From Caldicellulosiruptor diazotrophicus (GTDB lineage: Bacteria > Bacillota > Thermoanaerobacteria > Caldicellulosiruptorales > Caldicellulosiruptoraceae): DNA of 64,000 nucleotides. Under the pieces are notes generated by a model. It did not search any database. It saw nothing but the letters and a program-made list of their open reading frames with translations, and was not told the DNA's origin. The stretch's first letter is position 1, and each line of letters begins with the position of its first letter. Shown here one piece after another: positions 4,609 to 38,035 of the stretch. The position numbers and the translations under genes are program-made. The DNA lies in NCBI RefSeq assembly GCF_017347585.1, contig NZ_AP024480.1, positions 548,001 through 612,000 on the forward strand, given 5' to 3'.

Positions 4609-4639
4609 AAATAATATAATTAACCTGGAGGGATATGAT

Positions 4640-6898
4640 ATGAAAGAAAATAGCAGCTTAAAAATATTCTTTGATACTCCCGCCAATGATTGGAATGAAG
4701 CGTTGCCGATAGGGAATGGAAGATTGGGGGCTATGATTTATGGAACTATTAAAAAGGAAATACTTCAGCTTAATGAAGACAGCATCTGGTCGGGAGGACC
4801 CATGGAAAGAGAAAATCCTGATGCTAAACAGTATCTACCTCGTATACGAGAACTCTTGTTAAAAGGAGAAGTAAAAGAAGCAGAAAGGCTTGCTACTTTT
4901 GCTTTAACGGCCACTCCACCAAGCCAGGGGCATTATGAGCCTTTGGGATATTTGTATATAGATTTTGATATTAATGAGGATAAGGTAGAAAAGTACAGTC
5001 GTGAACTTGATCTTGAAAGAGCAGTTGCAAAAGTAAATTTTGAGCTAAATGGAATAGTGTTTAAAAGGGAGTATTTTGCTTCATATCCTGATAATGTGAT
5101 TGTAGGAAGGTTTGAATGTAAAAAAGAAAAAGGCATTTCTTTTTCTGCAGTCTTGCGAAGAGAAAAAGGGAAATATGTTGACAGGTGCGGTCGCATAGGA
5201 GATGATACAATATTTATTGAGGTGTTCAACGGCGGCGCAAATGGGCTTTCGTTTTGTGGAATGGTCAAGGCATTGACACCAGATGGCAGAGTTTTTTCAA
5301 TCGGTGAAACGTTATTTGTAGAAGATGCATCAGAAGTTATATTGCTAATTTCTTCTGCAACCACATACAGAACATCTGACTATTTTGAACATACTTTAAA
5401 TACACTCCAGAAAGCTGCTCAGAAGGGTTTTGCGAAGCTATATGAAGACCATATTGCTGATTATACTTCTTTGTTCAGAAGGGTAGAGTTTTATATCGAT
5501 ACTGAAGACCAGGATAAGCTTGACTTACCGACACCTGAGCGGCTTAGCCGCTTGAAAGAATGCGAAACTGATTTGGGTTTGATACCTCTGTATTTTCAGT
5601 TTGGCAGATATTTACTAATTTCAAGCAGCCGGCCTGGCAGCCTTCCTGCGAACTTGCAAGGTATATGGAACAAGGATATGTTGCCACCATGGGATAGCAA
5701 ATATACTATTAATATCAACACACAAATGAATTACTGGCCTGCAGAAGTTTGCAATCTCTCTGAATGTCACCTACCACTATTTGATTTGATAGAAAAAATG
5801 AAAGAAAGAGGAAGAAAAACGGCTGAAAAGATGTATGGATGTCGAGAGTTTTGTGCACATCACAATACAGATATCTGGGGTGATACTGCACCTCAAGATG
5901 TGTATTTACCTGCAACTCACTGGCCGATGGGTGCTGCTTGGCTGTGCCTTCATATATGGGACCACTATGAATATACAGGTGATGTTGAATTTTTGAAATC
6001 TCACTATGAAACAATGAAAGAAGCAGCTATATTTTTGCTTGACTATATGGTTGAAGACCACAATGGCTATCTTGTGACATGTCCGTCTTTATCACCGGAG
6101 AACAAATATATTCTTCCCAATGGAGATGTATGCAGTTTAACATATGCACCGACTATGGATATTCAAATCATAACAGCGCTTTTTAGCAGAATTATTAAAG
6201 CAAGCGAAGTTTTAAATATGGACTTTGACTTTGCACAGCAGTTAAAGGAAACTTTAAAAAGATTACCACCAATAAAAATTGGAAAACATGGTCAAATTCA
6301 AGAATGGATTGAAGACTATGAAGAAGCAGAGCCCGGGCATCGTCATATATCTCACCTATTTGGGCTGTATCCTGAAAGCCAAATAACAAAAGAAAAAACA
6401 CCGCAGCTTTTTGAAGCAGCAAAAAAAACGCTTGAAAGAAGACTTTCTTTTGGTTCAGGGCACACAGGCTGGAGTAGGGCATGGATAGTATGTTTTTGGA
6501 CACGGCTAAAAGATGGTGAGAAGGCATATCAGAATATCTTAGAGCTTTTAAGAAAATCCACACTGTCTAATCTATTTGATAACCATCCACCTTTCCAAAT
6601 TGACGGGAACTTTGGTGCTACTGCAGGAATTGCAGAGATGCTTTTGCAATCGTATGATGAAATAATAGAAATTTTACCTGCCCTACCTTCAGATTGGAAA
6701 AGTGGTTATATCAAAGGGCTCAAAGCAAGAGGAGGACATATTATTGATATTGAATGGGAGAACAGAAAACTCAAAAAAGTTAAAATTAAATTTGGATTTA
6801 GGCAAGATGTTAATGTAAAATACAAAGATAAAATTGTACGAATTGAAGGCAAGTCAGGAGAAGAAAAAATAATTAAAGGTGAGGAATTTAATCTGTGA
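4640..6898 (+). CDS. GH95 alpha-L-fucosidase
   Basis: The protein has 752 residues from ATG 4640, preferred over an upstream in-frame ATG at 4577 because CTGGAGGG sits 8 bases before it and the earlier start overlaps the previous gene. It opens with FFDTPANDWNEALPIGNGRLGAMIYG and LNEDSIWSGGP, hallmarks of GH95. Candidate catalytic residues match the inverting family: N358 and N360 in NINTQMNYW, E487 in SLSPENKY and D655 in QIDGNFGATAGIAEM. There is no secretion signal, so it acts on imported oligosaccharides. GH95 enzymes remove alpha-1,2-linked L-fucose (for example from xyloglucan or pectin side chains); some remove L-galactose, which cannot be excluded here. Confidence 0.88.
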   Translation: MKENSSLKIFFDTPANDWNEALPIGNGRLGAMIYGTIKKEILQLNEDSIWSGGPMERENPDAKQYLPRIRELLLKGEVKEAERLATFALTATPPSQGHYEPLGYLYIDFDINEDKVEKYSRELDLERAVAKVNFELNGIVFKREYFASYPDNVIVGRFECKKEKGISFSAVLRREKGKYVDRCGRIGDDTIFIEVFNGGANGLSFCGMVKALTPDGRVFSIGETLFVEDASEVILLISSATTYRTSDYFEHTLNTLQKAAQKGFAKLYEDHIADYTSLFRRVEFYIDTEDQDKLDLPTPERLSRLKECETDLGLIPLYFQFGRYLLISSSRPGSLPANLQGIWNKDMLPPWDSKYTININTQMNYWPAEVCNLSECHLPLFDLIEKMKERGRKTAEKMYGCREFCAHHNTDIWGDTAPQDVYLPATHWPMGAAWLCLHIWDHYEYTGDVEFLKSHYETMKEAAIFLLDYMVEDHNGYLVTCPSLSPENKYILPNGDVCSLTYAPTMDIQIITALFSRIIKASEVLNMDFDFAQQLKETLKRLPPIKIGKHGQIQEWIEDYEEAEPGHRHISHLFGLYPESQITKEKTPQLFEAAKKTLERRLSFGSGHTGWSRAWIVCFWTRLKDGEKAYQNILELLRKSTLSNLFDNHPPFQIDGNFGATAGIAEMLLQSYDEIIEILPALPSDWKSGYIKGLKARGGHIIDIEWENRKLKKVKIKFGFRQDVNVKYKDKIVRIEGKSGEEKIIKGEEFNL

Positions 6899-6965: not shown

Positions 6966-8750
<1,785 letters not shown>

Positions 8751-9235
8751 GTAACTTTTTATGTACAGAATTTTCTAAAAGTTTTACAATAGTTTGACTG
8801 AATTGAGTTTGTGGTTTACCATTTTGAAGAATTAAAAATATACATATTGACACAACAAAAACAAACTGATAAAATAAAATCGTGATTTAATAAAACAATA
8901 TTTTTAATAACAAACACAAGAAAAGTGAATGTATAGACAAAACAAAGCAAAAAACAACAATTGAGCGAAATTTATATTGATGATAAGTTCAGTATCTATT
9001 AGAAAGAAGCTAGTAATGGTAAATACAAGATTTAAAAGATATTTTATAAATTTAGTAGTCAAATTAATATAATTAAAATAAATACAAACTCAATAAGCTA
9101 AATTACGATTACAAATCAAAAAATATAAATTAAGAAAGACAAAATATTTTCTTCTTTTGGAGTGTTGTGGCAAAAATGCTCTTAAAAGAGCAATTGTAAA
9201 TATTACTACAAAAAACATAAAGGGAGGGAAGTTCA
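8751..9235. other. A-rich intergenic region with long 5' leader
   Basis: This 485-bp gap contains the sigma-A-like promoter at 8847-8875 and, downstream, about 350 bases of extremely A-rich leader before GTG 9236. I see no conserved riboswitch fold and no credible gene. A short frame starting at 9157 overlaps the next gene out of frame and is not supported. A weak hairpin follows the uidA stop but lacks a T-tract. Confidence 0.5.
8847..8875 (+). promoter_or_regulatory. Sigma-A promoter for the importer/redox operon
   Basis: Perfect -35 ttgaca (8847-8852), a 17-base spacer and -10 taaaat (8870-8875). Transcription would start near 8882. It is the only strong promoter seen before the operon that begins at 9236. 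Confidence 0.7.
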
Positions 9236-10540
9236 GTGAGAAAGTTTTTGTCAATCCTTTTTGCTATTTTGTTTTTACTTTCATGCGTTTTGACCACTCA
9301 GATAAAGACTTCACAAACTGCTCTTGGATCTTCTCAGTCAATAAAGCTGAGGATTGCGTGGTGGGGAAGCCAAACACGTCATGACAGGACTCAAAAAGTG
9401 CTTGAATTATATCGGGCAAAAGTTAATCGTAAGGTAAGTTTTGTCACTGAATTTGGTAGCTGGTCTGGATACTGGGATAAACTTACAACTCAAGCAGCAG
9501 CAAAGAATTTGCCTGACATTATTCAGATGGACTACATGTATTTAGCTCAATATGTTCAAAAAGGTTTATTAGCAGATTTGACCCCTTATACGAAAAATGG
9601 AATATTGAATTTGAAAGATGTAAGTGATGCAAGTATAAAAAGTGGATCAATCGGTGGAAAGGTTTATGCTATAAGTTTAGGAACTAACGCTTTGGCAATT
9701 ATTTATGACCCTGCTGTGGCTAAAAAAGCGGGTGTGAAGATACCTGAAGATGGTAACTGGAGTTGGAATGACTACAAGGAGATTATTAAAAAAGTTTATC
9801 AAAAAACCAAAATTAGAGCAGACTTGGCATTAACAGCTGATCCAAAATTCTTACTTGAATACTATGTAAGGCAGCAAGGTAAGAGCTTATATAAGCCCGA
9901 TGGGACAAGTTTAGGATTTACTCAAGAAAAATTTATTGTTGATGTATTTAATATCAATTTGGAACTCTTAAAAGGTGGATATACAGCAAGACCAGATGAA
10001 GTTTCAGCAACTTCTACAATTGAAGACAGTTTATTTGTTAAAGGGAAGACATGGATTGGCTGGACGTGGAGTAATATGTTTGTTGCAACAGCAAACGCAG
10101 CAAAACGTCCGTTAGCATTAGCATTACCTCCTAAGGGTGGAAAAAGGGCAGGATTGTATTTAAAACCCTCTCAATTTTTCTCTGTTGCAGCAACATCAAA
10201 ATATAAAAATGAAGCAGCAAAAGTTATAAATTTCTTTACGAATAGTGTAGAGGCAAACAAAATCTTGTTAGCAGAGCGAGGTGTGCCTATTTCATCTAAA
10301 GTTAGAGAAGGTATTAAAAATGCAGTAGAACCAGCAGTAAGACAGACATTTGATTATATAGCACTTGCTGAGAAAAACTGCTCACCTATTGATCCACCCG
10401 ATCCATCAGGAGGAACTGAAGTTGGTCAGCTATTTAAAGATTTGTATGATCAAGTTTTGTATGGTCAGATAAAGCCGGAAGTAGCTGCCAAGATGTTTAT
10501 ACAAAAGGCAAACCAAATACTTATGAGAAATAAAAAATAG
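9236..10540 (+). CDS. Sugar ABC transporter substrate-binding lipoprotein (CUT1)
   Basis: This 434-residue protein starts at GTG 9236, which follows GGGAGGG by 7 bases. The N-terminus has a lipoprotein signal with lipobox LLSC, placing the cysteine at residue 17 for membrane tethering. The mature part follows the ExtA/MalE-like fold: LRIAWWGSQTRHDRTQKVLELY, then LPDIIQMDYMYLAQYVQKGLLADLTPY (residues about 95-120) and WSWNDYKEIIKK near 175. It pairs with the two permeases downstream, from which it is separated by a hairpin. The ATPase is not encoded here; a shared MsmK-type ATPase elsewhere is likely. The ligand is unknown, but the operon context suggests it feeds the redox enzymes. Confidence 0.9.
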   Translation: MRKFLSILFAILFLLSCVLTTQIKTSQTALGSSQSIKLRIAWWGSQTRHDRTQKVLELYRAKVNRKVSFVTEFGSWSGYWDKLTTQAAAKNLPDIIQMDYMYLAQYVQKGLLADLTPYTKNGILNLKDVSDASIKSGSIGGKVYAISLGTNALAIIYDPAVAKKAGVKIPEDGNWSWNDYKEIIKKVYQKTKIRADLALTADPKFLLEYYVRQQGKSLYKPDGTSLGFTQEKFIVDVFNINLELLKGGYTARPDEVSATSTIEDSLFVKGKTWIGWTWSNMFVATANAAKRPLALALPPKGGKRAGLYLKPSQFFSVAATSKYKNEAAKVINFFTNSVEANKILLAERGVPISSKVREGIKNAVEPAVRQTFDYIALAEKNCSPIDPPDPSGGTEVGQLFKDLYDQVLYGQIKPEVAAKMFIQKANQILMRNKK

Positions 10541-10564
10541 TAAGAAAATAGAGTCATTTAAAAA

Positions 10565-10605
10565 ACGAGGGGCTATCCAGAAGGGTGGACAGCCCCTTGT
10601 TTAAA
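10565..10605 (+). terminator. Intra-operon hairpin between binding protein and permease
   Basis: Arms 10565-10579 and 10586-10600 pair over 15 bp, with one A-C mismatch and one G-U pair, around a 6-base loop. The following T-tract is weak. The position between binding-protein and permease genes suggests mRNA stabilisation or partial termination that favours the binding protein. Confidence 0.65.
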
Positions 10606-10635
10606 TTCCTGTATATAAGGAGGCGAAATAATTTA

Positions 10636-11571
10636 ATGTCAAAAATAACCTATAAAATGCCATTAAAAAATAGAGTTGATAGGATTTTAAATTCTGAAAA
10701 TATAGCAGGATATGTTTTTATTTTACCATGGCTGGTAGGATTTTTTGTATTTACCTTGATTCCAATTGTGGCTACATTTTACCTTTCATTTACTCAATAT
10801 GATTTATTATCACCGCCCAAATTTGTTGGTTTAAGGAATTATATTCAAATGTTTAAGGAAGATCCTTTATTTTGGAAGTCAATGTCAGTGACATTTTTCT
10901 ATGTATTTGTGACTGTCCCTTTGAAATTAGCTTTTGCTTTACTTCTTGCGCTTTGGCTATCTTATAAAAGTAAATTAACTCCTTTTTACAGAGCCGTATA
11001 TTATATCCCATCAATGATGGGAGGTAGTGTCGCAGTTGCTGTACTTTGGCAAAGACTATTTACAAGTGATGGCGTTATAAATTCTATATTAAAATTGCTT
11101 GGAATCGATTCAAATATTTCGTGGATAGGAAATCCTAAAACTGCAATCTGGACATTGATATTACTTGCAGTTTGGCAATTTGGTTCACCTATGTTAATAT
11201 TTTTAGCTGGTTTAAAACAAATACCTGAAAGCTATTATGAAGCAGCTATTATTGATGGAGCAAATAGTTGGCAAAAGTTCATTAAGATAACTTTACCAAT
11301 GCTTACACCGATAATATTTTTCAACTTGATAATGCAGATGATAGGTAGTTTTATGACTTTTACTCAAGGATTTATTATTACCAACGGAGGACCTGTAAAT
11401 AGTACTCTTTTTTATGCTATTTATCTTTACAGACGAGCATTTCAGTTCTATGATATGGGTTATAGCTGTGCAATGTCATGGGTAATGCTTATTATTATTG
11501 GAATACTTACAGCTTTTATATTTAAATCTTCTACATTTTGGGTCTATTACGAATCAAAGGAAGGTGAATAA
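10636..11571 (+). CDS. CUT1 ABC sugar permease, MalF/UgpA type
   Basis: The protein has 311 residues from ATG 10636, which sits behind AAGGAGG; an in-frame start 17 codons earlier lies inside the hairpin and is not used here. Six hydrophobic segments are visible, from AGYVFILPWLVGFFVFTLIP to the last one before the C-terminus. The EAA loop that contacts the ATPase is present (YYEAAIIDGANSWQKFIKITLP). It forms the channel with the next gene, whose start directly abuts its stop codon. Confidence 0.9.
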   Translation: MSKITYKMPLKNRVDRILNSENIAGYVFILPWLVGFFVFTLIPIVATFYLSFTQYDLLSPPKFVGLRNYIQMFKEDPLFWKSMSVTFFYVFVTVPLKLAFALLLALWLSYKSKLTPFYRAVYYIPSMMGGSVAVAVLWQRLFTSDGVINSILKLLGIDSNISWIGNPKTAIWTLILLAVWQFGSPMLIFLAGLKQIPESYYEAAIIDGANSWQKFIKITLPMLTPIIFFNLIMQMIGSFMTFTQGFIITNGGPVNSTLFYAIYLYRRAFQFYDMGYSCAMSWVMLIIIGILTAFIFKSSTFWVYYESKEGE

Positions 11572-11574
11572 TTG

Positions 11575-12417
11575 ATGAGAAGATCAAAGATGATAAGAAT
11601 GTTTCTATTTCATCTCATAACACTTTTATTTGGCTACATAATGCTTTATCCTCTTCTCTGGATGTTTTTTAGCTCATTTAAGGATAATAGTGAAATTTTC
11701 TTAAACGCTCATGAGTTATTACCTAAGAGATGGCTCTTTAAAAATTATGTTGATGGGTGGAAAGGTTTTGCCGGATATCCATTTTCAGTTTTTTTTAAAA
11801 ATTCATTTATTGTGACTGTAATTGGGACAATTGGTGCTGTAATTTCATCAGCCATTGTTGCATATGGTTTTGCAAGATGTAAGTTTAAAGGTAAAGGATT
11901 TTGGTTCGGATGTATGATTTTAACCATGCTTTTGCCATATCAGGTAGTTATGATACCTCAATATATTATGTTTCAAAAGTTAGGGTGGGTAAATTCGTTT
12001 AAACCACTACTTGTTCCAGCCTTTTTGGGTCAACCGTTTTTTATATTTTTAATGATTCAATTCATAAGAGGTATTCCTAATGAATTGGATGAAGCAGCAA
12101 AAATTGATGGTTGTAGCAAATATTCAATTTTTACCAGAATTATTTTGCCATTGATTTCGCCTGCTTTAATTACATCGGCAATATTTTCGTTTTTGTGGCG
12201 ATGGGATGACTTTTTAGGACCTTTGCTTTATCTCAGCAAACCAGAGCTATATACTGTTTCTTTGGGTTTGAGGATGTTTTCTGATCCGACAGCAGTATCA
12301 AATTGGGGAGCAGCATTTGCTATGGCTACTTTATCACTTGTTCCTTCGTTTATAATATTTATTTTCTTCCAGCGTTATCTAGTTGAAGGAATTGTCACTA
12401 CAGGGTTAAAAGGTTAA
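11575..12417 (+). CDS. CUT1 ABC sugar permease, MalG/UgpE type
   Basis: The protein has about 280 residues. ATG 11575 is preferred over the adjacent in-frame TTG 11572; GGAAGGTG precedes both. It has six membrane spans, including [22 protein letters not shown] at the start, and the MalG-type EAA loop ([23 protein letters not shown]). It is the second channel subunit of the importer. The gap to the next gene is 126 bases and holds only a weak ccaat/attgg hairpin with a T-tract near 12490-12515. Confidence 0.9.
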
Positions 12418-12543
12418 AAAAGAATAGGAGATTTATGGAAACGAAAAGGGTACACTTCTATTTTTTAATGGTGATTTTAGTGTTGTAAGTAGTAACCCAA
12501 TTATTGGTTTTTTTAAAAATTTTTTTCAGAAGGAGTGATAACA

Positions 12544-13689
12544 ATGCCAGACTTATCAATTACATATAGTAAACTAAGACTAAGATCACCTGTAATTGTT
12601 GCATCAGCAGGGATTACAGGAACTGTGGAGAGGCTTCAAAGATGTGAAGAAAACGGTGCTGGGGCTGTTGTGACAAAAAGTCTTTTTCAAAAGGAAATAT
12701 GCAGAATTGCACCCACTCCACGGTTTAAAATAGTCAAGCATGAAAACACGTTTACGCTTTACTCATATGAACAGGCAAGCGAATTTAACCCTCAAGAGTA
12801 TGCTGAATTTATATTCAAAGCAAAACAAAAGCTAAGCATTCCAGTCATTGCGAGTATAAACTGCTACACAGATGATGCATGGCTTGAGTATAGTAAGCTT
12901 ATGGAGCAGGCAGGGGCTGATGCGATAGAGCTAAACCTTTCATGTCCTCACGGTGTGCATATAATGTCTGGTATGGATGTAATTGAAGAGATGGTCCACA
13001 CAACAAAGCTTGTCAAAAGCAATGTCAAAATACCCGTAATACCAAAAATGACTCCTCAATCTACAAATCCGGGGTCTGATGCCTTAAGACTCGATAACGC
13101 AGGAGCAGACGGGCTTGTAATGTTCAATAGATTTACAGGGCTTGACATTGATATTGAGAAAGAAGCACCCATTTTGCACGGCGGTTATGCAGGGCATGGT
13201 GGTCCGTGGGCAATTATGTATGGTTTGAGGTGGATAAGCGCTGTATCGCCAAAAGTAAAATGTAGTATCAGTGCGAGCGGCGGTGCCATAAATGGAGAAG
13301 ATGTTGTCAAATACATATTGGCAGGTGCGTCGGCTGTTCAAGTTTGCACAACTGTTATTTTGAATGGCTATGGGGTTATAAAAAAGATAAACAAGTATTT
13401 AGAAGAGTACATGGAGAGAAAAGGTTACAACACAATTGATGATTTTAAAGGAAAGGTATGTGGCAAAATTCTTGACATGGACTCTGTTGACAGAACGCAC
13501 TGGGCTGTTGCAAGGATTGACAAAGAAAAATGCACATCTTGTGGCAAGTGCTTCACAGTTTGCATATATGATGCAATTGAAAAGGATGATGGAAAGTTTA
13601 AAGTAAATCAAAACTGTGATGGCTGCGGACTTTGTGCAGAACTGTGCCCAGCCAAGGCAATCTTAATGGTAAGAAGAGGTGAAGTTTAA
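12544..13689 (+). CDS. DPD/DHOD-like FMN oxidoreductase with C-terminal 2[4Fe-4S] ferredoxin domain
   Basis: The protein has 381 residues from ATG 12544 (AAGGAG 8 bases upstream; an in-frame GTG at 12535 overlaps that site). Residues 1-300 form a dihydroorotate/dihydropyrimidine dehydrogenase TIM barrel that binds FMN. LNLSCPHG puts the catalytic cysteine at residue 134. The loop equivalent to the Asn-Thr pair of pyrimidine dehydrogenase reads NRF, so pyrimidine is probably not the substrate. Residues about 325-375 hold two CxxCxxCxxxC cluster motifs (CTSCGKCFTVC, CDGCGLCAELC). The overall shape is that of PreA. No PyrK- or PreT-like partner is present; the flavoprotein starts 2 bases after its stop, so they probably exchange electrons. 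The physiological reaction is unknown. Confidence 0.8.
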   Translation: MPDLSITYSKLRLRSPVIVASAGITGTVERLQRCEENGAGAVVTKSLFQKEICRIAPTPRFKIVKHENTFTLYSYEQASEFNPQEYAEFIFKAKQKLSIPVIASINCYTDDAWLEYSKLMEQAGADAIELNLSCPHGVHIMSGMDVIEEMVHTTKLVKSNVKIPVIPKMTPQSTNPGSDALRLDNAGADGLVMFNRFTGLDIDIEKEAPILHGGYAGHGGPWAIMYGLRWISAVSPKVKCSISASGGAINGEDVVKYILAGASAVQVCTTVILNGYGVIKKINKYLEEYMERKGYNTIDDFKGKVCGKILDMDSVDRTHWAVARIDKEKCTSCGKCFTVCIYDAIEKDDGKFKVNQNCDGCGLCAELCPAKAILMVRRGEV

Positions 13690-13691
13690 AA

Positions 13692-15479
13692 GTGATATAC
13701 AAAGCAGATGTGCTGGTAGTAGGTAGTGGCGGAGCAGGTTTGAGAGCTGCAATTGCAGCGTGTGAAAGAGCCTATGAGAGCCGAAAAAGAATAAAAGTTT
13801 TGCTGGCAAGCAAAGGAAAAATAGGAAGTTGTGGTACTACAGCTCTTGCATACTCTGATAGAATGGCATTCCATGTCACACTTCCCACAACAGAGCCTAA
13901 AGGTGAAGATAACTGGAAATATCATGCAAAAGATATCTATGAGATTGGCGGACTTGTTTCTGATTATGACTTGGCTGAGATTTTAGCAAAAAACTCAGCC
14001 GATGCTTATTTTTACTTAGATAGTTTAGGTGTTCCCTTTGTAAAAGAAAATGGCGTACCCGTTCAATTTGTGACAGACGGCTCTATATATGCGCGTGCAT
14101 GTTTTACAGGACCTGATACTGCTGTTCAAATAGAAAAGGCATTGATTCGAAAGCTTGGTGAGATGAAGGATATTGAAGTTTTAGAAGATGTGATGATAAG
14201 TGATTTGATTGTTGTGAATAACAAAGTTTGCGGAGCAATTGGATTTAAAGAGAATCAAAATATCATAATACTTGCAAAAGCCATTGTTTTAGCAACAGGT
14301 GGTGCAGGAAGTATTTATAAAAGCAATGTATTTCCACCACGCATGACAGGTGATGGGTATGCAATGGCACTTCGTGCAGGAGCACAGCTTGTAAACATGG
14401 AATTTATCCAGATAGGTCTTTCATCCCCCAAAACAAAACTTGCGTGTTCGGGAAGTATAATGAGATGTGTCCCCAGGTTTGTAAATGAAAAAGGAGAAGA
14501 ATTTTTGTTAAATTATCCTATCACATACAATGATGTATTTGAAAAAGGTGCAACTTGGCCAATAAGCTACGAGCATAAGACATGCCTAATAGACATTGCA
14601 GTATTTAGGGAAATTGCACGTGGTGGAAAGGTGTTTTGGGACTTTACTCAAAATCCCAAAGGATTTGAGTTTGAACATCTAAGAGAAGATTTAAAACAAA
14701 GGTATTATAAAGAAGTTAAAAATCAGATTGGGAGCAGAAAAACTCCATATGAAAGACTCTGTGAAATAAATCCTCAGACAGTTGAGTGGTTTTTGAAAAG
14801 GGGAATTGACCTTAGAAACCAAATGTTAGAAATTGCACCATCAATTCAGCATTTCCAGGGTGGTGTAAAAATTAGAGAAAATGCAAATACAGCTATTGAA
14901 GGCTTGTATGCCTGTGGAGAGTGTGCAGGCGGACAACATGGAGCAAACAGACCAGGCGGAAATGCACTTTTGGATACTCAGGTTTTTGGTAAGATAGCAG
15001 GGGAAAGTAGCTTTGAATTTGCTTTGAATACTTCAATCGATGAAGAATCTATAGTTTGCCAAGCAAACCGCTTGTTTGAAAGCTATAAAAGCTATATAGC
15101 TGAAGATGGCATTGATTTGGAGAATGCCATATCAGAACTAAATAGGGTTATGGATTTGTACGCAAGTGTTGTGAGACATCAGGATGGACTTCAAAAAGCA
15201 CTTATGAAAATTGAGGAGTTGAAAACAAGAAAAATCAAGCCTGTTGAGTATGAATATCTTTTAGAGCTAAAAAACATGCTTTTGTGTGCAGAGGCAGTTG
15301 TAAAAAGTTGTATTTTAAGAGATGAAAGCAGAGGACCGCACTTGATGTTTGAAAATTACAGCGATTTGTGGCCAAAGCCAAGAGATGAAAGATACAACGT
15401 ATACCATGTATGCAGGCTAAACAAAGAGACTAATCAAATTGAAGTCTTTCCAATGCAGTCGGTAAAACCAAAAGCGTAG
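13692..15479 (+). CDS. Fumarate reductase/succinate dehydrogenase-type FAD oxidoreductase
   Basis: This 595-residue protein starts at GTG 13692, immediately after the DPD-like gene, whose last codons supply the ribosome site (AGAGGTGAAG). The FAD dinucleotide motif is VVGSGGAGLRAA at residues 8-19. The C-terminal flavin segment reads GLYACGECAGGQHGANRPGGNALLD, including the GANR arginine conserved in FrdA/SdhA, and HFQGG holds a candidate substrate-binding histidine. There is no signal peptide, no FrdB or membrane anchor partner, and no covalent-FAD histidine motif evident. The family removes or adds hydrogen across C-C bonds (succinate, aspartate, enoates) or handles sulfur compounds. Here the likely partner is the FMN-ferredoxin protein; the substrate is unknown. 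Confidence 0.8.
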   Translation: MIYKADVLVVGSGGAGLRAAIAACERAYESRKRIKVLLASKGKIGSCGTTALAYSDRMAFHVTLPTTEPKGEDNWKYHAKDIYEIGGLVSDYDLAEILAKNSADAYFYLDSLGVPFVKENGVPVQFVTDGSIYARACFTGPDTAVQIEKALIRKLGEMKDIEVLEDVMISDLIVVNNKVCGAIGFKENQNIIILAKAIVLATGGAGSIYKSNVFPPRMTGDGYAMALRAGAQLVNMEFIQIGLSSPKTKLACSGSIMRCVPRFVNEKGEEFLLNYPITYNDVFEKGATWPISYEHKTCLIDIAVFREIARGGKVFWDFTQNPKGFEFEHLREDLKQRYYKEVKNQIGSRKTPYERLCEINPQTVEWFLKRGIDLRNQMLEIAPSIQHFQGGVKIRENANTAIEGLYACGECAGGQHGANRPGGNALLDTQVFGKIAGESSFEFALNTSIDEESIVCQANRLFESYKSYIAEDGIDLENAISELNRVMDLYASVVRHQDGLQKALMKIEELKTRKIKPVEYEYLLELKNMLLCAEAVVKSCILRDESRGPHLMFENYSDLWPKPRDERYNVYHVCRLNKETNQIEVFPMQSVKPKA

Positions 15480-15492
15480 GGGGAAAACAAGA

Positions 15493-16581
15493 ATGAAAGC
15501 TTATGCAATGGTTTTAGAAGAGTTCAACAAACCTTTGAAGATGAAGGAGTTTGAATTAATGTCTCCAACTGACGGTAAGCTTTTGGTAAAGATAGAAGCA
15601 GCAGGTGTTTGTGGTTCTGATGTGCATATGTTCAGGGGTAATGACCCTCGCACAAAACTTCCCATGATTTTAGGGCATGAAGGTGTTGGACGTGTGTATG
15701 CTATTTCAGGTCAGTGGCGTGATATAAATGGCGAGAAAATTCAAGAGGGAGATTTGATAATTTGGGACAGGGGTGTTGTGTGTGGTAGGTGCTACTTTTG
15801 TGCTGTCAAAAAAGAAAGCTATCTGTGTCCGCACAGATGGACATATGGGATAAGCGTTAGCTGCGCAGAACCTCCGTATTTGAGAGGCTGCTATTCGGAA
15901 TACATTTATCTTCACAAAGATACGAAAGTTATAAAAATAAAAGAGAATGTTGCTCCGGAAATTTTAGTATCTGCCTCATGTTCTGGTGCAACGTGTGCTC
16001 ATGCTTTTGACATTGTTTCACCTGATTTTGGTGACAGTGTCCTAATTCAAGGACCAGGTCCTATAGGGCTTTATGCAATCATTTTTGCAAAACTTAGAGG
16101 AGCACGAAATATAATTGTGATTGGTGGCACAAAAGAAAGACTTAAAATGTGTGAAGAATTTGGAGCAACGCATGTGCTTGATAGAAATTCGACTACAGCT
16201 GGTCAAAGACAGGAAATAATAATGGATATCACAAATGGGCGTGGAGTCGATTTGGCAATTGAAGCTGTGGGACATCCATCAGCAGTAAGTGAGGGAATAA
16301 AACTTGTTCGAAATGGTGGAAGCTACTTATCACTTGGTTTTGGTGACCCAAACGGCAGCGTTACACTTGACTGTTATTATGACATTGTAAGAAAGAATTT
16401 AAGATATCAGGGTGTATGGGTAAGTAGCACAAAACATCTGTATATGGCAGTAAATGTTGTGCTGCAGAACAGGGAACTTTTCAAAAAGATGATTACAAAT
16501 GTTTACAAGTTGACTGATGCGACAAAAGCTCTTGAGGATATGGAAAACAGAAATACAATAAAATCTGTTCTGAAGCCATGA
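15493..16581 (+). CDS. Zinc-dependent medium-chain alcohol dehydrogenase
   Basis: This 362-residue member of the MDR superfamily has catalytic zinc ligands in AAGVCGSDVH and GHEGVGRV and a structural-zinc loop (CGRCYFC, later C). A Rossmann NAD(P) motif follows (VLIQGPGPIGLYAIIFAK) near residue 185. It resembles threonine/sorbitol-type dehydrogenases and would oxidise a secondary alcohol of a sugar or sugar acid. AGGGGGAAAACAAG precedes ATG 15493. Only 13 bases separate it from the flavoprotein, so it is co-transcribed. The substrate is inferred only from context. Confidence 0.85.
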   Translation: MKAYAMVLEEFNKPLKMKEFELMSPTDGKLLVKIEAAGVCGSDVHMFRGNDPRTKLPMILGHEGVGRVYAISGQWRDINGEKIQEGDLIIWDRGVVCGRCYFCAVKKESYLCPHRWTYGISVSCAEPPYLRGCYSEYIYLHKDTKVIKIKENVAPEILVSASCSGATCAHAFDIVSPDFGDSVLIQGPGPIGLYAIIFAKLRGARNIIVIGGTKERLKMCEEFGATHVLDRNSTTAGQRQEIIMDITNGRGVDLAIEAVGHPSAVSEGIKLVRNGGSYLSLGFGDPNGSVTLDCYYDIVRKNLRYQGVWVSSTKHLYMAVNVVLQNRELFKKMITNVYKLTDATKALEDMENRNTIKSVLKP

Positions 16582-16608
16582 ATATAATTTAAAAGGGGGT
16601 GTACAGTC

Positions 16609-17820
16609 TTGAACATTGCAAAGGTTGGTCTTATTGGAATTAGTGGGTTTGGAAGTATACACTTGCGGTCAATAGAACAGCTCCAAGGGAAGATGGTTGA
16701 CTTGAGAGCAATTGTTGCAACAAGCTACGAAAAAAATAAAGAAGTGATTGATAGATTGGCTTCTCGAGGTGTTAAGTATTATCAGGATTATAGATTAATG
16801 CTTGAAAATCATAAAGACTTAGATTTTGTTGCTATCTCAACGCCCATTCATTTACATGCTCCAATGGCAATTGATGCAATGGAAAGAGGTTTTAATGTCC
16901 TGCTTGAAAAGCCGCCTGCTGTGACAATTCAGGATATTGACGCTATAATTGAGACGAAGAGAAAAACAAAAAGGGTTTGTAGCGTGAACTTTCAAAACAC
17001 CTCTGGTAAAGCATTTAGAAAACTTCTTGAGTATATAAAAGAAGGCAAACTTGGCAGAATAAGATCAATTGTTGGTGTTGGACGTTGGAAAAGGGATGAA
17101 AGCTATTATCAAAGAAATGCGTGGGCTGGTAAGTTAATTGTTAATGGCAACTATGTCTTGGATGGAACAATAAACAATCCTCTTGCACATCTTTTGAACA
17201 ATGAACTGATTATTGCTGAGACCTTGGAAGAAAATGGGGGTGTGCCTCAGAAAGTTACTGCAGAACTTTATCACGGGCACAAGATTGAAGGGGAAGACAC
17301 AGCGTGTGTGAGAATTATAACAAAAACGGGAATCGAGGTTTATTTTTATTCAACGCTATGCAACAGGGAAGAAGAGCCACCCTATATCATAATAGAAGCT
17401 GAAAAAGCAAAAGTCTATTGGACATTTGCAAATAGGTTTAAAATAGAATACATTGATGGCTCTACAGAAGAATTTGATGGTGGGCGTGAAGATTTGTTTG
17501 TAAATATGTACATTAATATGGTAGAGCATCTGTTTGAAGGCAAACAGCTTTACTGTCCACTAGAAATAACGCGTAATTTTGTATTAGCATCAAACGGGGC
17601 TTTTGAATCATCGGGGTGTGTTTATGGTATTCCAGATGAATATTTAGAGATTAGCAATGAAAATGGTAAGATATATACTTATATCAAGGATATAAAAGAA
17701 ATCATAGATGAGGTTGCTGTAAATAAAAAACTATTTTCTGAAATAGAAGTACCATGGGCGAAACAAACAAGAGAGTTTGGTTTAATTGATTACTGTTGTT
17801 TTAGTATGTTTAAAGGGTAA
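16609..17820 (+). CDS. Gfo/Idh/MocA-family oxidoreductase
   Basis: The protein has 403 residues from TTG 16609, which follows AGGGGGTG by 7 bases. The N-terminal NAD(P) fold (VGLIGISGFGSIHLRSI) is followed by FVAISTPIHLHAPMAIDAMERGFNVLLEKPPA with the family's EKP lysine. The C-terminal half is the usual beta-sheet substrate domain and includes NPLAHLLNN. Family members oxidise sugar hydroxyls, often at C3, or sugar phosphates. As the last gene of the importer/redox operon it probably works on the imported ligand, and a terminator follows 48 bases on. It is only distantly similar to the other two Gfo copies in the window. Confidence 0.85.
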   Translation: MNIAKVGLIGISGFGSIHLRSIEQLQGKMVDLRAIVATSYEKNKEVIDRLASRGVKYYQDYRLMLENHKDLDFVAISTPIHLHAPMAIDAMERGFNVLLEKPPAVTIQDIDAIIETKRKTKRVCSVNFQNTSGKAFRKLLEYIKEGKLGRIRSIVGVGRWKRDESYYQRNAWAGKLIVNGNYVLDGTINNPLAHLLNNELIIAETLEENGGVPQKVTAELYHGHKIEGEDTACVRIITKTGIEVYFYSTLCNREEEPPYIIIEAEKAKVYWTFANRFKIEYIDGSTEEFDGGREDLFVNMYINMVEHLFEGKQLYCPLEITRNFVLASNGAFESSGCVYGIPDEYLEISNENGKIYTYIKDIKEIIDEVAVNKKLFSEIEVPWAKQTREFGLIDYCCFSMFKG

Positions 17821-17867: not shown

Positions 17868-17910
17868 AGAGCTATCTTGAGTTTTATTTGGATAGCTCTT
17901 TTATTTTTTT
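17868..17910 (+). terminator. Terminator of the importer/redox operon
   Basis: Arms 17868-17876 (agagctatc) and 17891-17899 (gatagctct) pair over 9 bp, followed by a long T-rich tail. Confidence 0.8.
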
Positions 17911-18133: not shown

Positions 18134-21100
18134 GTGAAGAAGAAGGTATGTGCTTTTGTTGTTTTGATTTCGTTTTTACTTTTTAATATCTTTGGAAATG
18201 TATTTGTTGTAAAGGGCAATAATATTTTTGACCCATCAAACTATGTTTTATTTGATGGGACTAACTTTGAAGATGGTTCAACTTGGGGATTTACTGCAAG
18301 TGCGGGCGCAAGTTCAACAGTTGTTACAGATGTTTATGGTAACAAATATTTAGAAGCAAAAGGTTCAGGCAGTGGTACGCGCTCTGTTGTTAAGACGTTT
18401 ACAAGTTCAACTACAAAAGATAAAGTATTAATAATTTTCGATTGGCAGCCGATGGACGTTTCAACATCAGCAAATAATAGTGAAGTATTGATCAGCGATG
18501 AAAATAACAATCCTCTTTTTAGACTAGTAAAAAAAGGTGGGACAAACGGAGCTATAGGATACAGTGTTGGAACAACAGGAATTGATCTTTCAAAAGTTAC
18601 TTATATCAACTCAATTGACACAACTCAAAAATGGTTAACTGTTCACATTTTATTCGATTTTAGTGCAGAAACAGTTTCGTTTGAGATATTTAACAAAGAT
18701 GACCCTTCAAAGTATTTTTCAGCATATAACCTTGACTTGAAGAATATAATATATCTAAACAAAATCAAAAAAATATCAATTATTGGAAACAGGGCAAGTG
18801 GAAATACTTTGAACTTTACTACAAATATAGATAATATTTTTATATACACCTCTACAACAGATGCTCCGATACAAGGAGCTAAAAATATTGTTGAGATTGT
18901 AAGTAGCTACACATACAATTATGATTTTCCTTTGGGTACTTCTATTAATGATGTAATTTCATTTTTCCCTACAACACTTAATGTAAAACTTGAAAATAAT
19001 GTTGTAGTTAATAATGTGCCAGTGAGCTGGAGTTGTTATAATTATAATCCAAATCAGGAAGGGACATATCAGTTTATTGGCAATCTCATTGTTGACGGGA
19101 TAACTGGGGTTAAAAATGATTACAATATAACTGCCCAAATTAATGTAAGACTATTAAACCTTGTATTTATTCCACCACAAATTCCGGGTTATGAAGCGGT
19201 ATATGCAACTGATTTTGGCGATACAATTACAGTTGTTCCGAAGTACTGGGGATTTTCCACTCAAAATGCTACACTTAATATTAATACAAGTAATGTAAAA
19301 GGCAACTCAACACCTAAACTGGAATTTACACAAATTAATCAAACAGGTGGACGTGTTGCTACAAAATCTTTTGGTGAAACTATTAAAGGAGATTCAATAC
19401 TTATTAAGTTAGATTGGTATCCAGGACTACTAAATGATAAAGGAACAAATCCATATGAAAATGGTGGGGAATTAAGACTTGTCGATTCGTCAGGAAACAC
19501 ATTTTGGGTATTAAATAATACAAGAAATTCACCGCTTAAACTTGTATTGGGTGGAACAGTAAGTTATATGACATATTTTGCTGATCCAGAAAAGTGGTAC
19601 AATATTGAAGTTAATTGTGATGTTTTGAATAAATTAATTTATACAAAAATTACAGATACAGAAACTTCAACTGTCGTAGAATTTACCTATTCAATAGAAG
19701 GAATTGCATTTGACGGGACTCTTAAGTCAATGAGTTTAGTTGGTATTAGAACTTCCGGCAATAATATAACATGGACTACTTACTTAGACAATGTATGGAT
19801 TTACAACAAACCTATACCACAGAACAGAATAATAAATGTTGATAAGTTGCCCTATAAAACTGTATACGTAAATACTGTACAAGATGTATCTCAAATAGGG
19901 CTTCCATCAAAGGTTACAGTTACACTTGCGAGTGGTCAAAAAAAGGAAGTTGAAGTACAGAATTGGGAATCCATTGGTGGTCAGAGGTCACCGGATAAGC
20001 CGGGTATATATACATTTAAAGGCATATTAAAAGAAGATAACACAGTTGACAACACATATGGGAAGTATGCTGTATGTTATGTCTACAATAAATTACCACC
20101 GTCTAAAGCTGTAAGACAAACAGAGTGGCTTAATAGAGGTTTAATTGCTTTAAAAGCAGAAAATGGTATATTTATTAGTTGGAGATTGTTAGCTGATGAA
20201 TACAAAAAAGATATAAAATTTAATATTTATAGAAATGGACAGAAGTTGAATATAACACCGTTGACAGTAACAAATTATTTAGATTCAGATGGTAATCCAG
20301 GAGACATATACAAAATAGAAACCTTATTAAATGGGACAAAAATAGAAGAAATGCAGGTTACAGCACTTGATAAAGACTATATTTCAATACCACTTCAAAA
20401 GCCTGAAGATGGGATCAATGAAGCAGGGGAGAGTTACACATATGAAGCAAATGATTGCAGCGTAGGAGATTTAGATGGTGATGGTGAATATGAAATAATT
20501 GTTAAATGGTTGCCTTCAAATGCAATTGATAGTTCACAGACAGGGTTAACTGGTCCAACAATCTTCGATGCATATAAACTTGATGGAACGCTGTTGTGGA
20601 GAATGAATATGGGACTTAACCTAACATCTGGTGCACATTACAATCAGTTCTTAGTATATGATTTTGATGGAGATGGAAGAAGCGAATTTGTTGTCAAGAC
20701 CGCTGATGGTACAACCGTTTATGGCACAACATACGGAAAAGTTGATTATAGTAAAGTAATAAGTGTTATCGGAGACCCATCGAAGAACGGTGCATACCGT
20801 TTTGGACCAAGTGGTGCATTTCCAGGTAAAGTATGGGGCGGTCCTGAGTATATATCCATTTTTGATGGTGAAACAGGTAAAGTATTGGATAGTATAGAAT
20901 ATAGGTATTCTATAGAAAAAACAGGTGTTGCTTCATGGGGTGACACATGGTATAACAGATCAGATAGATTCTTAGCAGCAGTTGCATATTTAAATGGTAC
21001 AACACCGTCTATAGTATTTGGAAGAGGATATTATGCAAGAACGACTTTTGTTGCATACGACTTTATCAATGGGAAGTTGCAAGAAAGATGGCATTTTGAT

Positions 21101-23491
21101 ACTCAAGAAATTGGCGGCAAAGGTGAAGGCATGGGTAATCACAATCTTTCGGTAGCAGATGTAGATAATGATGGATGCGATGAAATAATTGCTGGGTCAT
21201 TAACGCTTGACCATGACGGTAAAATCTTGTATGTAATGGATGGAGAAATGGGAAGAGAATTGGGTTCGCATGGCGATGCATTGCATGTAGGTGCATTTTT
21301 CCCAGACCGTGAAGGGATTCAGGTATTTGGTGTTCATGAGGTACCTGCTGTAGCTTCGCTTGAGCTTCATGATGGTGCAACTGGCGAAACTTTACAAGCT
21401 TACTTTGCTTATAAAGACACAGGACGTGGAGTTTGTGCAAACATAGCTTCTGAGCCAGGTTATGAATTTTGGGGTGCTGGTGATTTCAATGATGTAAACA
21501 AAGGTGCAGGTATATATAATGTATATGGCAAGATAATTAGCAATGATTGTCGGGCAGCAGGACTTCCTATGAATTTTGCGCTGTACTGGGATGGGGACCT
21601 AATGCAAGAGCTTCTCGATGATGTTAGCATTTTCAAATATGATGAAACAAGAGATAAAACTGATATTATAAGAACTTTTGAAGGTGTAAAAAGTATTAAT
21701 GGAACTAAAGCAAATCCATGCTTGCAAGCCGATATTTTAGGTGATTGGCGAGAAGAAGTTATATATCCAACATTTGATAATACTGAGCTGAGAATTTATA
21801 GCACTACTATACCCACTCAATATAGAATCTATACTCTGATGCATGACCCTGTATACAGACTTGGGATAGCATGGCAGAACATTGCTTACAATCAGCCACC
21901 ACATACAAGCTTTTATCTTGGTGAGGATATAAAAGATGTTGTCTTGGCGAACAATTTACCAGTTAAAGACGTATATTATACTAATAAGCCGAAGAAAACT
22001 GATGACCCAGAAGAAAAATTGTTCTACAAGTCAGCTTCCGATAGTAAAGTAGATTTGTATTTTGAAAACAGCAAAGTTAAAGTAACAATTGAAAATAATG
22101 ATGAAATAATTGGTGCTAAGATTTCTATAAAACGCTCTAACATGGTCAATAATATCCCGTTGCTTTCTGAATTAAGTAGTACTAATAACTTTGTAGAAAT
22201 TAAAAAGAGCGAAAATATTATTAACTTACCAATTATGGTAGAGATAGAGTTTAATTCAGCTAACATAAATGGGTGTGATGTAAATTCATTAAAACTTTAC
22301 AGATACAATATCCCAGCGGCAAAATGGGAGCTTGTGAATGGACAGATACTGAATATTAGTAAGGGCATTGTATCTTTTGTTGATAATGTAGGAGGAATTT
22401 ATGGGATTTTTGGTGTAAAACCAATTGCATCATCTGGAACAGTAACAACAATTATTACAGTTCCTCAGTCGCAAGCTACAACTTCGACAACCGAAGCAAT
22501 AAAAGAACAAGAAAAAACACAGAAAGAAAGCTCAAAGGAATCATTACAATCAATGCCTCAATCTCAGGCTTTAGATAAGAATACTTTCGTTACTAATATA
22601 AATAAAGACTCTATAACAAACATAGACATAGGTAACCAGGCAAAAATTACAGTACCACCACAGTCTGTAGATGGTAATAAACCAGTTCTCAAAGTAGAAA
22701 TAATGAATAACTACACAGAAAAAGTAGATGTAGGAATGCCAATTACACAACCTATTAATGTAAACGTCGAAGGTGGAAATATTAAAAAACCAATTATTTT
22801 AGAAGTTAAAATAGCACCCGAAGTTGTTAAAAACGAAAAAGTTGTTGTAGGCTTAGTTTTTGATTCCCAGAATAAAAGATGGATACCAGCCTTAACTAAG
22901 AAAAATATGAATTCTGTTCAGGTAGAAATTAGTAAAACAGGTGTAGTTCAAATAATAGCTGCAAAATTACAAGAAATTTATGGTGATATAAGTGAAAATA
23001 ACTGGGCATATAATTCATTCAGTCAAGCAATCTCTAAAGGAATAATCACTGGATATCCTGATTTAAAACTCAAACCTGAAAAACAAATTTCATACTATGA
23101 GGCTGCTGTTATATTGGATAGGGCATTTAGCTTGAAATCTGCTGAAGATATTGAAATTTCTAAAGAAGTTCCAAAATGGGCTATAGATGCTATAAAGAAA
23201 ATGATAGATAATGGAATTTTTGAAAGCCAAAATGTTTCTGATGGGTTGCTAACGCGAATAGATGCTGTGAAATTCTTAGTAAGGATTTTAGAACAGCAAG
23301 GAATTACTATCAATGGCGATACTATACAGTTTAAAGATATAAATAATCCTTCATACATTGAAATTATTTCTAAAGCGTACAAATTGGGCATTGTGAAAGG
23401 CTATCCAGATGGTACATTTAAGCCAGAAAAATCAGTTACAAGAGCCGAATTCATTGCAATGTTAATGAGAGCCTTAAATAATGTAAAATAA
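18134..23491 (+). CDS. Surface-anchored PL11 rhamnogalacturonan lyase with SLH domains
   Basis: This 1,785-residue exported protein starts at GTG 18134 after AAAAAGGAGGG. In order, approximately: signal peptide 1-28; jelly-roll-like module 35-245; Ig-like (Big_4-type) module 250-322; a second jelly-roll 356-560; a second Ig-like module 570-652; PL11 catalytic propeller 658-1266; two beta modules; a Ser/Thr/Gln-rich linker near 1432-1490; and SLH repeats 1615-1785 (ISENNWAYNSFSQAISKGI, WAIDAIKKMIDNGIF, YPDGTFKPEKSVTRAEF). The lyase part has calcium-binding DxDGDG loops (DLDGDGEYEIIVKW, DFDGDGRSEFVVKT) and the PL11 ending IAYNQPPHTSFYLG. It would cleave the rhamnogalacturonan I backbone at the cell surface by beta-elimination. 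SLH domains bind pyruvylated wall polymer, linking it to the CsaB-TagA gene at 50664. Confidence 0.93.
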   Translation: MKKKVCAFVVLISFLLFNIFGNVFVVKGNNIFDPSNYVLFDGTNFEDGSTWGFTASAGASSTVVTDVYGNKYLEAKGSGSGTRSVVKTFTSSTTKDKVLIIFDWQPMDVSTSANNSEVLISDENNNPLFRLVKKGGTNGAIGYSVGTTGIDLSKVTYINSIDTTQKWLTVHILFDFSAETVSFEIFNKDDPSKYFSAYNLDLKNIIYLNKIKKISIIGNRASGNTLNFTTNIDNIFIYTSTTDAPIQGAKNIVEIVSSYTYNYDFPLGTSINDVISFFPTTLNVKLENNVVVNNVPVSWSCYNYNPNQEGTYQFIGNLIVDGITGVKNDYNITAQINVRLLNLVFIPPQIPGYEAVYATDFGDTITVVPKYWGFSTQNATLNINTSNVKGNSTPKLEFTQINQTGGRVATKSFGETIKGDSILIKLDWYPGLLNDKGTNPYENGGELRLVDSSGNTFWVLNNTRNSPLKLVLGGTVSYMTYFADPEKWYNIEVNCDVLNKLIYTKITDTETSTVVEFTYSIEGIAFDGTLKSMSLVGIRTSGNNITWTTYLDNVWIYNKPIPQNRIINVDKLPYKTVYVNTVQDVSQIGLPSKVTVTLASGQKKEVEVQNWESIGGQRSPDKPGIYTFKGILKEDNTVDNTYGKYAVCYVYNKLPPSKAVRQTEWLNRGLIALKAENGIFISWRLLADEYKKDIKFNIYRNGQKLNITPLTVTNYLDSDGNPGDIYKIETLLNGTKIEEMQVTALDKDYISIPLQKPEDGINEAGESYTYEANDCSVGDLDGDGEYEIIVKWLPSNAIDSSQTGLTGPTIFDAYKLDGTLLWRMNMGLNLTSGAHYNQFLVYDFDGDGRSEFVVKTADGTTVYGTTYGKVDYSKVISVIGDPSKNGAYRFGPSGAFPGKVWGGPEYISIFDGETGKVLDSIEYRYSIEKTGVASWGDTWYNRSDRFLAAVAYLNGTTPSIVFGRGYYARTTFVAYDFINGKLQERWHFDTQEIGGKGEGMGNHNLSVADVDNDGCDEIIAGSLTLDHDGKILYVMDGEMGRELGSHGDALHVGAFFPDREGIQVFGVHEVPAVASLELHDGATGETLQAYFAYKDTGRGVCANIASEPGYEFWGAGDFNDVNKGAGIYNVYGKIISNDCRAAGLPMNFALYWDGDLMQELLDDVSIFKYDETRDKTDIIRTFEGVKSINGTKANPCLQADILGDWREEVIYPTFDNTELRIYSTTIPTQYRIYTLMHDPVYRLGIAWQNIAYNQPPHTSFYLGEDIKDVVLANNLPVKDVYYTNKPKKTDDPEEKLFYKSASDSKVDLYFENSKVKVTIENNDEIIGAKISIKRSNMVNNIPLLSELSSTNNFVEIKKSENIINLPIMVEIEFNSANINGCDVNSLKLYRYNIPAAKWELVNGQILNISKGIVSFVDNVGGIYGIFGVKPIASSGTVTTIITVPQSQATTSTTEAIKEQEKTQKESSKESLQSMPQSQALDKNTFVTNINKDSITNIDIGNQAKITVPPQSVDGNKPVLKVEIMNNYTEKVDVGMPITQPINVNVEGGNIKKPIILEVKIAPEVVKNEKVVVGLVFDSQNKRWIPALTKKNMNSVQVEISKTGVVQIIAAKLQEIYGDISENNWAYNSFSQAISKGIITGYPDLKLKPEKQISYYEAAVILDRAFSLKSAEDIEISKEVPKWAIDAIKKMIDNGIFESQNVSDGLLTRIDAVKFLVRILEQQGITINGDTIQFKDINNPSYIEIISKAYKLGIVKGYPDGTFKPEKSVTRAEFIAMLMRALNNVK

Positions 23492-37982: not shown

Positions 37983-38035
37983 TTCTTTCACTCCAAATTG
38001 TTTTAGTTGTATTTATTTTAAAGTTATTTATTTTA

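Follow-up and report, generated by a model that had tools for sequence, protein, structure and literature searches.

A conserved four-gene redox cassette in Caldicellulosiruptor and a tentative route from plant-wall uronic acids to 2-keto-3-deoxygluconate

Why would an operon for sugar uptake carry four oxidoreductases as its only enzymes? The question is raised by a locus of Caldicellulosiruptor diazotrophicus (contig NZ_AP024480.1, positions 548,001 to 612,000), analysed here as one stretch of 64,000 nucleotides, the window, in which a CUT1 importer is followed by a PreA- and dihydroorotate dehydrogenase-like FMN protein (PREA), a flavoprotein with the SdhA/FrdA fold (FLAVO), a zinc-dependent alcohol dehydrogenase (ADH) and a Gfo/Idh/MocA oxidoreductase (GFO; coordinates in Table 1). 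An earlier reading, made from the sequence only, had named these families, which open reading frames (ORFs) and Pfam bear out, and had imagined a non-phosphorylating pathway through keto and enone intermediates for an imported pectin-derived or related sugar. We find that the four redox genes very probably form a conserved functional unit, and we propose, tentatively and as a real possibility rather than a probability, that they provide a redox route, via keto and enone intermediates, from a plant-wall uronic-acid unit to 2-keto-3-deoxygluconate (KDG).

The cassette is intact, with the same gene order, in 7 of the 12 genomes of the genus, and because order and spacing are kept throughout, the conserved unit is the four redox genes and not importer plus cassette. 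The importer lies upstream in G000 (the genome of the window), G001 and G004, downstream in G007 and about 9 kb past the cassette end in G003, and it is absent beside the intact cassette in G002 and G009 (two of the seven carriers) as well as in the cassette loci of other genera, so that importer and redox genes as a single conserved unit, the arrangement assumed at first, were rejected. The cassette directly follows a beta-glucuronidase gene in G003 and G007, and a PL26 gene in G009. Four-gene cassettes with 59-80% identity are found in Thermoanaerobacterium and in a third genus, within rhamnosidase, rhamnose and xylan loci; in the third genus all four genes are present in G031, and three are visible before the contig end in G021. 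One Thermoanaerobacterium genome (G020) has two copies, one (L031) after rhaA-rhaB with GH4, GH106 and UxaC genes nearby, the other (L029) in a GH10-GH67-GH52-GH39 xylan locus, and two further genomes have the xylan-locus cassette only, ahead of GH39 and a CE7 acetyl xylan esterase. A 148-residue C-terminal fragment of rhaB precedes all three xylan-type copies (L029, L048, L049), which points to an origin of the xylan-locus cassette by copying from the rhaA-rhaB locus. Among plant-wall genes, a GH106-type rhamnosidase occurs in 10 of the 12 carriers within the class and in none of its 25 non-carriers (hypergeometric 2e-7, shared ancestry uncorrected), and PL26 tracks the cassette within the genus (7/7 carriers, 0/5 non-carriers).

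The association extends well beyond these genera. A search with FLAVO turned up homologues of roughly 43% identity and above in 66 non-redundant loci, which come from many phyla, among them Bacillota, Thermodesulfobacteriota, Myxococcota, Thermotogota, Atribacterota and candidate phyla. Partners were counted when encoded on the same strand within ten genes of the FLAVO homologue and were labelled by BLAST to representatives, most being Pfam-checked, and as controls we took 24 loci whose flavoproteins are distant (27-29% identity). An FMN reductase was present in 46 of the 66 loci vs none of the controls (Fisher 4e-10), zinc ADH in 44 vs none (2e-9), and KDG kinase and/or 2-keto-3-deoxy-6-phosphogluconate (KDPG) aldolase in 20, both together in 12, vs none (0.001), where the label KDG kinase is our inference from PfkB family membership and linkage to the aldolase. 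LacI-type regulators occur in 24 loci and TRAP or TTT importers in 15. The cleanest operon (L174) contains KdgA, KdgK, LacI, TRAP, ADH, PREA and FLAVO; UxaC, KdgK and KdgA lie alongside FLAVO, an OYE-type reductase and ADH in L055 and L070; and in L083 and L088, from Atribacterota and Thermotogota, a CUT1 importer and two Gfo genes accompany OYE and FLAVO, with KDG kinase too in L083. The kinase and aldolase make for a phosphorylating lower pathway, contrary to the non-phosphorylating one first suggested. Set against the refuting conditions named in the earlier reading, the outcome is mixed: known lower-pathway enzymes do occur in homologous clusters, and joint conservation with this importer is partial.

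The FMN reductase comes in two types: 16 loci have the PreA-like one and 30 the OYE-type (PF00724, with four invariant cysteines in 28/28), and no locus has both (P 9e-6). On the FLAVO tree the PreA/OYE label switches six times, at least three of these switches being forced by well-supported branches, and the PreA-bearing L174 nests among OYE loci with support 100/87. We read the two as different FMN/Fe-S ene-reductases that have been repeatedly swapped in one role, and because both would fill that role, our best guess is that PREA reduces an activated C=C bond. The OYE homologue had no match in the PDB at E 1e-25.

PREA has the FMN barrel and C-terminal 2x[4Fe-4S] domain of the dihydropyrimidine dehydrogenase PreA/PreT, with all eight cluster cysteines invariant across 13 homologues, but it scores 217 bits against the PreA equivalog NF006183, below the cut-off of 335, has Ser145 in place of the catalytic cysteine of the LACGQD loop, and has no PreT alongside. 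Some homologues bear a fused PreT-like module (L035), which shows an NAD(P)H-fed alternative. The predicted structure of FLAVO (pLDDT 93) superposes end to end on E. coli FrdA (5vpn_A; Z 48.9, rmsd 3.4, 538 aligned), whereas the curated models of succinate dehydrogenase and fumarate reductase are missed by far (TfrA 328 < 718 bits, sdhA_frdA 220 < 567 bits) and no SdhB/FrdB partner gene is present. Since the substrate histidine of that family, in MEFIQ(F/Y)H, aligns with the invariant Gly242 and no such curated model is reached, FLAVO as modelled is a fumarate reductase fold without the fumarate site. No FLAVO homologue was found in the plasmid collection at E 1e-60.

ADH matches the scyllo-inosose 3-dehydrogenase model, with a score under its cut-off. 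The GFO model (pLDDT 92, weaker at residues 170-174) has as its best sequence match the glucuronide-3-dehydrogenase 8TDI (E 7e-16), which is also the top Foldseek match (1e-25), and by VIA-align the two top structures are tied, WlbA (Z 38.3, rmsd 2.4, 329 aligned) and 8TDI (Z 37.7, 2.2, 339). WlbA, whose structure was solved with UDP-GlcNAcA, works like 8TDI at C3 of a glucuronic-acid unit. GFO has the 8TDI-like fold and shares the segment WxRxxSYYxxxxxW.

How, then, could these enzymes yield KDG? The contexts converge on plant-wall acid sugars (beta-glucuronidase, rhamnogalacturonan I (RG-I) lyases, GH106, GH67/xylan, UxaC) and on KDG as product, and for this reason we propose oxidation, elimination and reduction, of which we infer the substrate, the step order and the electron path. 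What is observed is the gene content, the conservation of the four genes together, the swap of FMN reductases, the linkage with KDG genes and the likeness in fold. Redox chemistry would take the place of the classical isomerase and dehydratase steps and act on a uronic-acid unit freed inside the cell, the uronate coming from RG-I or arabinogalactan side chains in the host of the window and from xylan in Thermoanaerobacterium. To judge from the gene context, an oligosaccharide would enter through the CUT1 importer and be trimmed by the GH106 rhamnosidase and the beta-glucuronidase. GFO, by family and fold, would then oxidise the uronide at C3, ADH would interconvert alcohol and ketone, and a neighbouring C-O substituent could leave. 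The enone would be reduced by the FMN/[4Fe-4S] protein, a role that OYE-type ene-reductases would take elsewhere, and FLAVO would perform a second step on a C-C/C=C bond, probably exchanging electrons with PREA through Fe-S clusters, since the two genes are adjacent and some homologues carry a PreT-like NAD(P)H module as a fusion. KDG would finally enter the KDG kinase/KDPG aldolase route, encoded with the module in many homologous loci. The stoichiometry permits this (uronate + 2[H] -> KDG + H2O), being a net single reduction. The pectin or uronic-acid setting and the keto and enone intermediates first suggested have gained support from the context, and the intermediates also from the replacement of PreA-like by OYE-type ene-reductases and the likeness of GFO to uronide 3-dehydrogenases.

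Several points weigh against the uronate-to-KDG proposal. The operon in the window has no KDG kinase or aldolase of its own, and oxidation of a uronide at C3 alone does not account for the 3-deoxy group of KDG, which leaves a gap in the step order. With sequence identity to 8TDI of only about 20%, the likeness of the GFO model to uronic-acid 3-dehydrogenases is a lead, and the VIA Z scores of DgpA1 (36.6) and levoglucosan dehydrogenase (36.1), which are also sugar oxidoreductases, are close. KDG genes are in reach of just 30% of the wider loci, many contigs being short, and other compounds may be the substrates in some of these loci, where LIV-type transporters or aroE are encoded. PL26, GH106 and the cassette may be one island gained together, in which case the three do not co-occur independently within one genus. 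Finally, GH67, a source of 4-O-methyl-D-glucuronate, was rejected as a discriminating partner, as it is also present in most non-carriers of these genera.

A narrower form of the proposal, which we consider unlikely, makes the module the missing anaerobe route for 4-O-methyl-D-glucuronate and for glucuronates with other 4-O substituents. Oxidation would activate the sugar acid, methanol would leave from C4 and the FMN/FAD pair would reduce the enone to KDG, with a bookkeeping (4-O-methyl-glucuronate + 2[H] -> KDG + methanol) that matches two reductions and one oxidation. If true, it would account for one cassette in RG-I/arabinogalactan, beta-glucuronidase and xylan loci.

Equally improbable in our view, unsaturated uronates could be the substrate, FLAVO and the FMN protein reducing the C4=C5 bond of the 4,5-unsaturated galacturonic acid released by PL26 or PL11, and ADH and GFO finishing the conversion. 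PL26 is confined to the seven carriers within the genus and PL11 adjoins the cassette, while the bond, conjugated to a carboxylate, recalls the substrates of fumarate and acrylate reductases, whose fold FLAVO has in the case of fumarate reductase. The Thermoanaerobacterium cassette, however, lies in xylan loci where no lyase genes are seen, PL26 was not found at E 1e-40 in G016, G029 and G021, UxaC rather than KduI/KduD comes with the module in L055 and L070, and the substrate histidine of fumarate reductase is replaced in FLAVO.

Breakdown of L-rhamnose, e.g. the handling of L-lactaldehyde or a non-phosphorylating rhamnonate route, is distinctly unlikely. The classical lactaldehyde enzymes are missing in Caldicellulosiruptor according to PMC8579813, GH106 is confined to carriers, and the cassette stands right behind rhaA-rhaB in L031, with the rhaB fragment before the other Thermoanaerobacterium copies. 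These fragments, however, are consistent with the duplication of one locus; rhamnose isomerase was rejected as a discriminating partner, rhaA being present in the non-carriers G005, G008, G010 and G012 too; most wider loci lack rhamnose genes and have KdgK, KdgA, UxaC or TRAP/TTT instead; and an ene-reductase is not required to turn over lactaldehyde.

Very unlikely, too, is an electron sink in which a plant enone or unsaturated acid is reduced to re-oxidise ferredoxin or NADH, no carbon passing to KDG: the Fe-S domain of PREA, which comes with no NAD(P)H module, the FrdA-like fold and the anaerobic hosts would fit, but not the repeated linkage to KdgK, KdgA and dedicated importers. Just as doubtful is a substrate other than a uronate, either a cyclic polyol or a cyclohexane carboxylate, akin to inositol, quinate or shikimate: aroE near the module (L059, L080, L095, L100) and the inosose dehydrogenase match of ADH, below the cut-off, would fit, but aroE is found just in more distant loci and the closest relatives lie in carbohydrate-active enzyme, UxaC and KDG contexts.

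The proposed uronate route has partial parallels among known systems. In bile-acid 7alpha-dehydroxylation (Bai), an alcohol is oxidised to a ketone, a neighbouring oxygen is eliminated, an OYE-type FMN/Fe-S enzyme reduces the enone and the ketone is reduced. The cassette would share this oxidise-eliminate-reduce logic, but differs in its sugar-acid context, linkage to KDG kinase and aldolase, SdhA-like flavoprotein and PreA-like/OYE exchange; bai genes were not searched for. With 3-keto glycoside breakdown (8TDI, levoglucosan dehydrogenase, DgpA) it has in common the nearest fold and motif of GFO, whereas its operon has no lyase or hydratase (AP_endonuc_2 or similar) among the ORFs and Pfam matches within 9236-17820, although G021 and G031 have AP_endonuc_2 genes close to the cassette; the three other redox enzymes are not known to belong to that pathway. 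The cassette is a demonstrated member of neither system. The classical hexuronate pathway (UxaC-UxuB-UxuA-KdgK-KdgA) would share the end product KDG, and KdgK/KdgA, sometimes with UxaC, are found in homologous loci, but minimal operons such as L174 have no isomerase or dehydratase.

For C. bescii, passages of PMC8579813 (Rodionov et al.) describe rhamnogalacturonide uptake and KDG metabolism, including the KDG kinase/KDPG aldolase route, report that steps of galacturonate and of lactaldehyde metabolism are missing, and give no function to the four genes. No description of the cassette or of 4-O-methyl-glucuronate catabolism was found in the literature searched, most subscription papers lying outside it and prior annotation elsewhere being possible; the route as such is probably undescribed. 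If right, oxidation-elimination-reduction would join the few known ways from acid sugars to KDG, genes resembling "dihydroorotate dehydrogenase" and "fumarate reductase" would gain a function, and two FMN ene-reductase families would be seen to replace each other repeatedly beside one flavoprotein. The gaps in uronate catabolism reported for this biofuel genus in PMC8579813 make the cassette relevant.

The operon itself comprises seven same-strand, tightly spaced genes with open frames throughout (9236-17820) and lies between a promoter, the only one named for it in the sequence-only reading, and a terminator. The promoter ranks in the top three of 59 motif matches, a count not above that of shuffles (52.5 +/- 6.8), and is conserved in two other genomes with the same arrangement; the terminator, whose loop exceeds the limit of the scanner, was found from sequence and folding. 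The importer is of CUT1 type, with a binding protein and two MalFG-type permeases, and no ATPase ORF lies between 8750 and 18134; in C. bescii, a single promiscuous ATPase, MsmK, powers the oligosaccharide importers (PMC8579813), such sharing being usual in these hosts. The very stable hairpin at the junction of the binding protein and the first permease is likely an expression-balancing element, and no stand-out hairpin precedes the PreA-like gene (12418-12545 folded, z +1.0). The absence of a hydrolase, claimed at the outset, holds inside the operon and fails for the locus, with PL26, GH95 and beta-glucuronidase genes upstream, the last ending 97 bases 5' of the promoter, and a PL11 gene downstream.

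Table 1. Features of the cassette, its operon and the surrounding locus (window coordinates)
Feature	Position	Strand	Evidence or remark
PreA/DHOD-like FMN barrel, C-terminal 2x[4Fe-4S] (PREA)	12535..13689	+	probable true start ATG 12544 (alignment)
SdhA/FrdA-fold FAD flavoprotein (FLAVO)	13692..15479	+	Pfam, predicted structure, alignment
Zinc-dependent medium-chain alcohol dehydrogenase (ADH)	15493..16581	+	Pfam, curated models
Gfo/Idh/MocA oxidoreductase (GFO)	16609..17820	+	modelled fold nearest uronic-acid 3-dehydrogenases
Sigma-70-type promoter	8847..8875	+	TTGACA-17-TAAAAT, extended TG; kept in G001, G004
CUT1 extracellular solute-binding protein	9236..10540	+	SBP_bac_8 91.5 bits, SBP_bac_1 74 bits
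Strong hairpin, binding protein/first permease junction	10563..10602	+	-26.3 kcal/mol, z -6.1
CUT1 permease 1	10585..11571	+	BPD_transp_1
CUT1 permease 2	11572..12417	+	BPD_transp_1
Intrinsic terminator, 10-bp outer stem then T-run	~17868..17910	+	-14.3 kcal/mol, z -4.6, 0/200 shuffles
PL26-type (PcRGLX-like) rhamnogalacturonan exo-lyase	2011..4608	+	in exactly 7 genus genomes with cassette
GH95	4577..6898	+	Pfam
GH2 beta-glucuronidase	6969..8750	+	NF007538 850 bits vs cut-off 544
PL11 rhamnogalacturonan lyase with SLH domains	18134..23491	+	Pfam
Second Gfo/Idh/MocA gene	33077..34069	-	adjoins cassette in G002, G004, G007
GH106-type alpha-L-rhamnosidase	34863..37991	-	in cassette carriers only (10/12 vs 0/25)

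Among the neighbouring genes, the PL26-type lyase begins MQEIKLKWLIKPQVGN, with no evident signal peptide, and is probably cytoplasmic; the C. bescii exolyase RglX, termed secreted in PMC8579813, may be a different gene. Relatives of the second Gfo gene sit with CUT1, OYE and FLAVO in L083 and L088, and a further Gfo/Idh/MocA frame of 258 residues in the window (23595-24371) has lost most of its N-terminal nucleotide-binding part and is probably truncated or decayed. The beta-glucuronidase beside the cassette is broken in G007 (L023 11280-15256) and G003 (L025 6089-10067) by two opposite-strand ORFs resembling insertion sequences (254 and 400 residues), the cassette being intact.

Other observations concern the homologous loci. 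In T. saccharolyticum NTOU1 (G029, L049), the PreA-like gene is broken into two frames, one of 276 and one of 132 residues, by mutation or sequencing error. In the Sporomusaceae loci, genes suspected of corrinoid O-demethylation proved to be a LIV-type ABC importer. The URO-D family includes methyltransferases; its genes occur in 6 of the 66 wider loci, and three consecutive ones, possibly relevant to methyl ethers, stand beside the GH106-cassette locus of G021 (L033 8203-11655). Caldicoprobacter-type loci (L050-L054, L060, L061) have an ORF of 1900-1950 residues after ADH; in L052 and L054 the other flank carries GH10.

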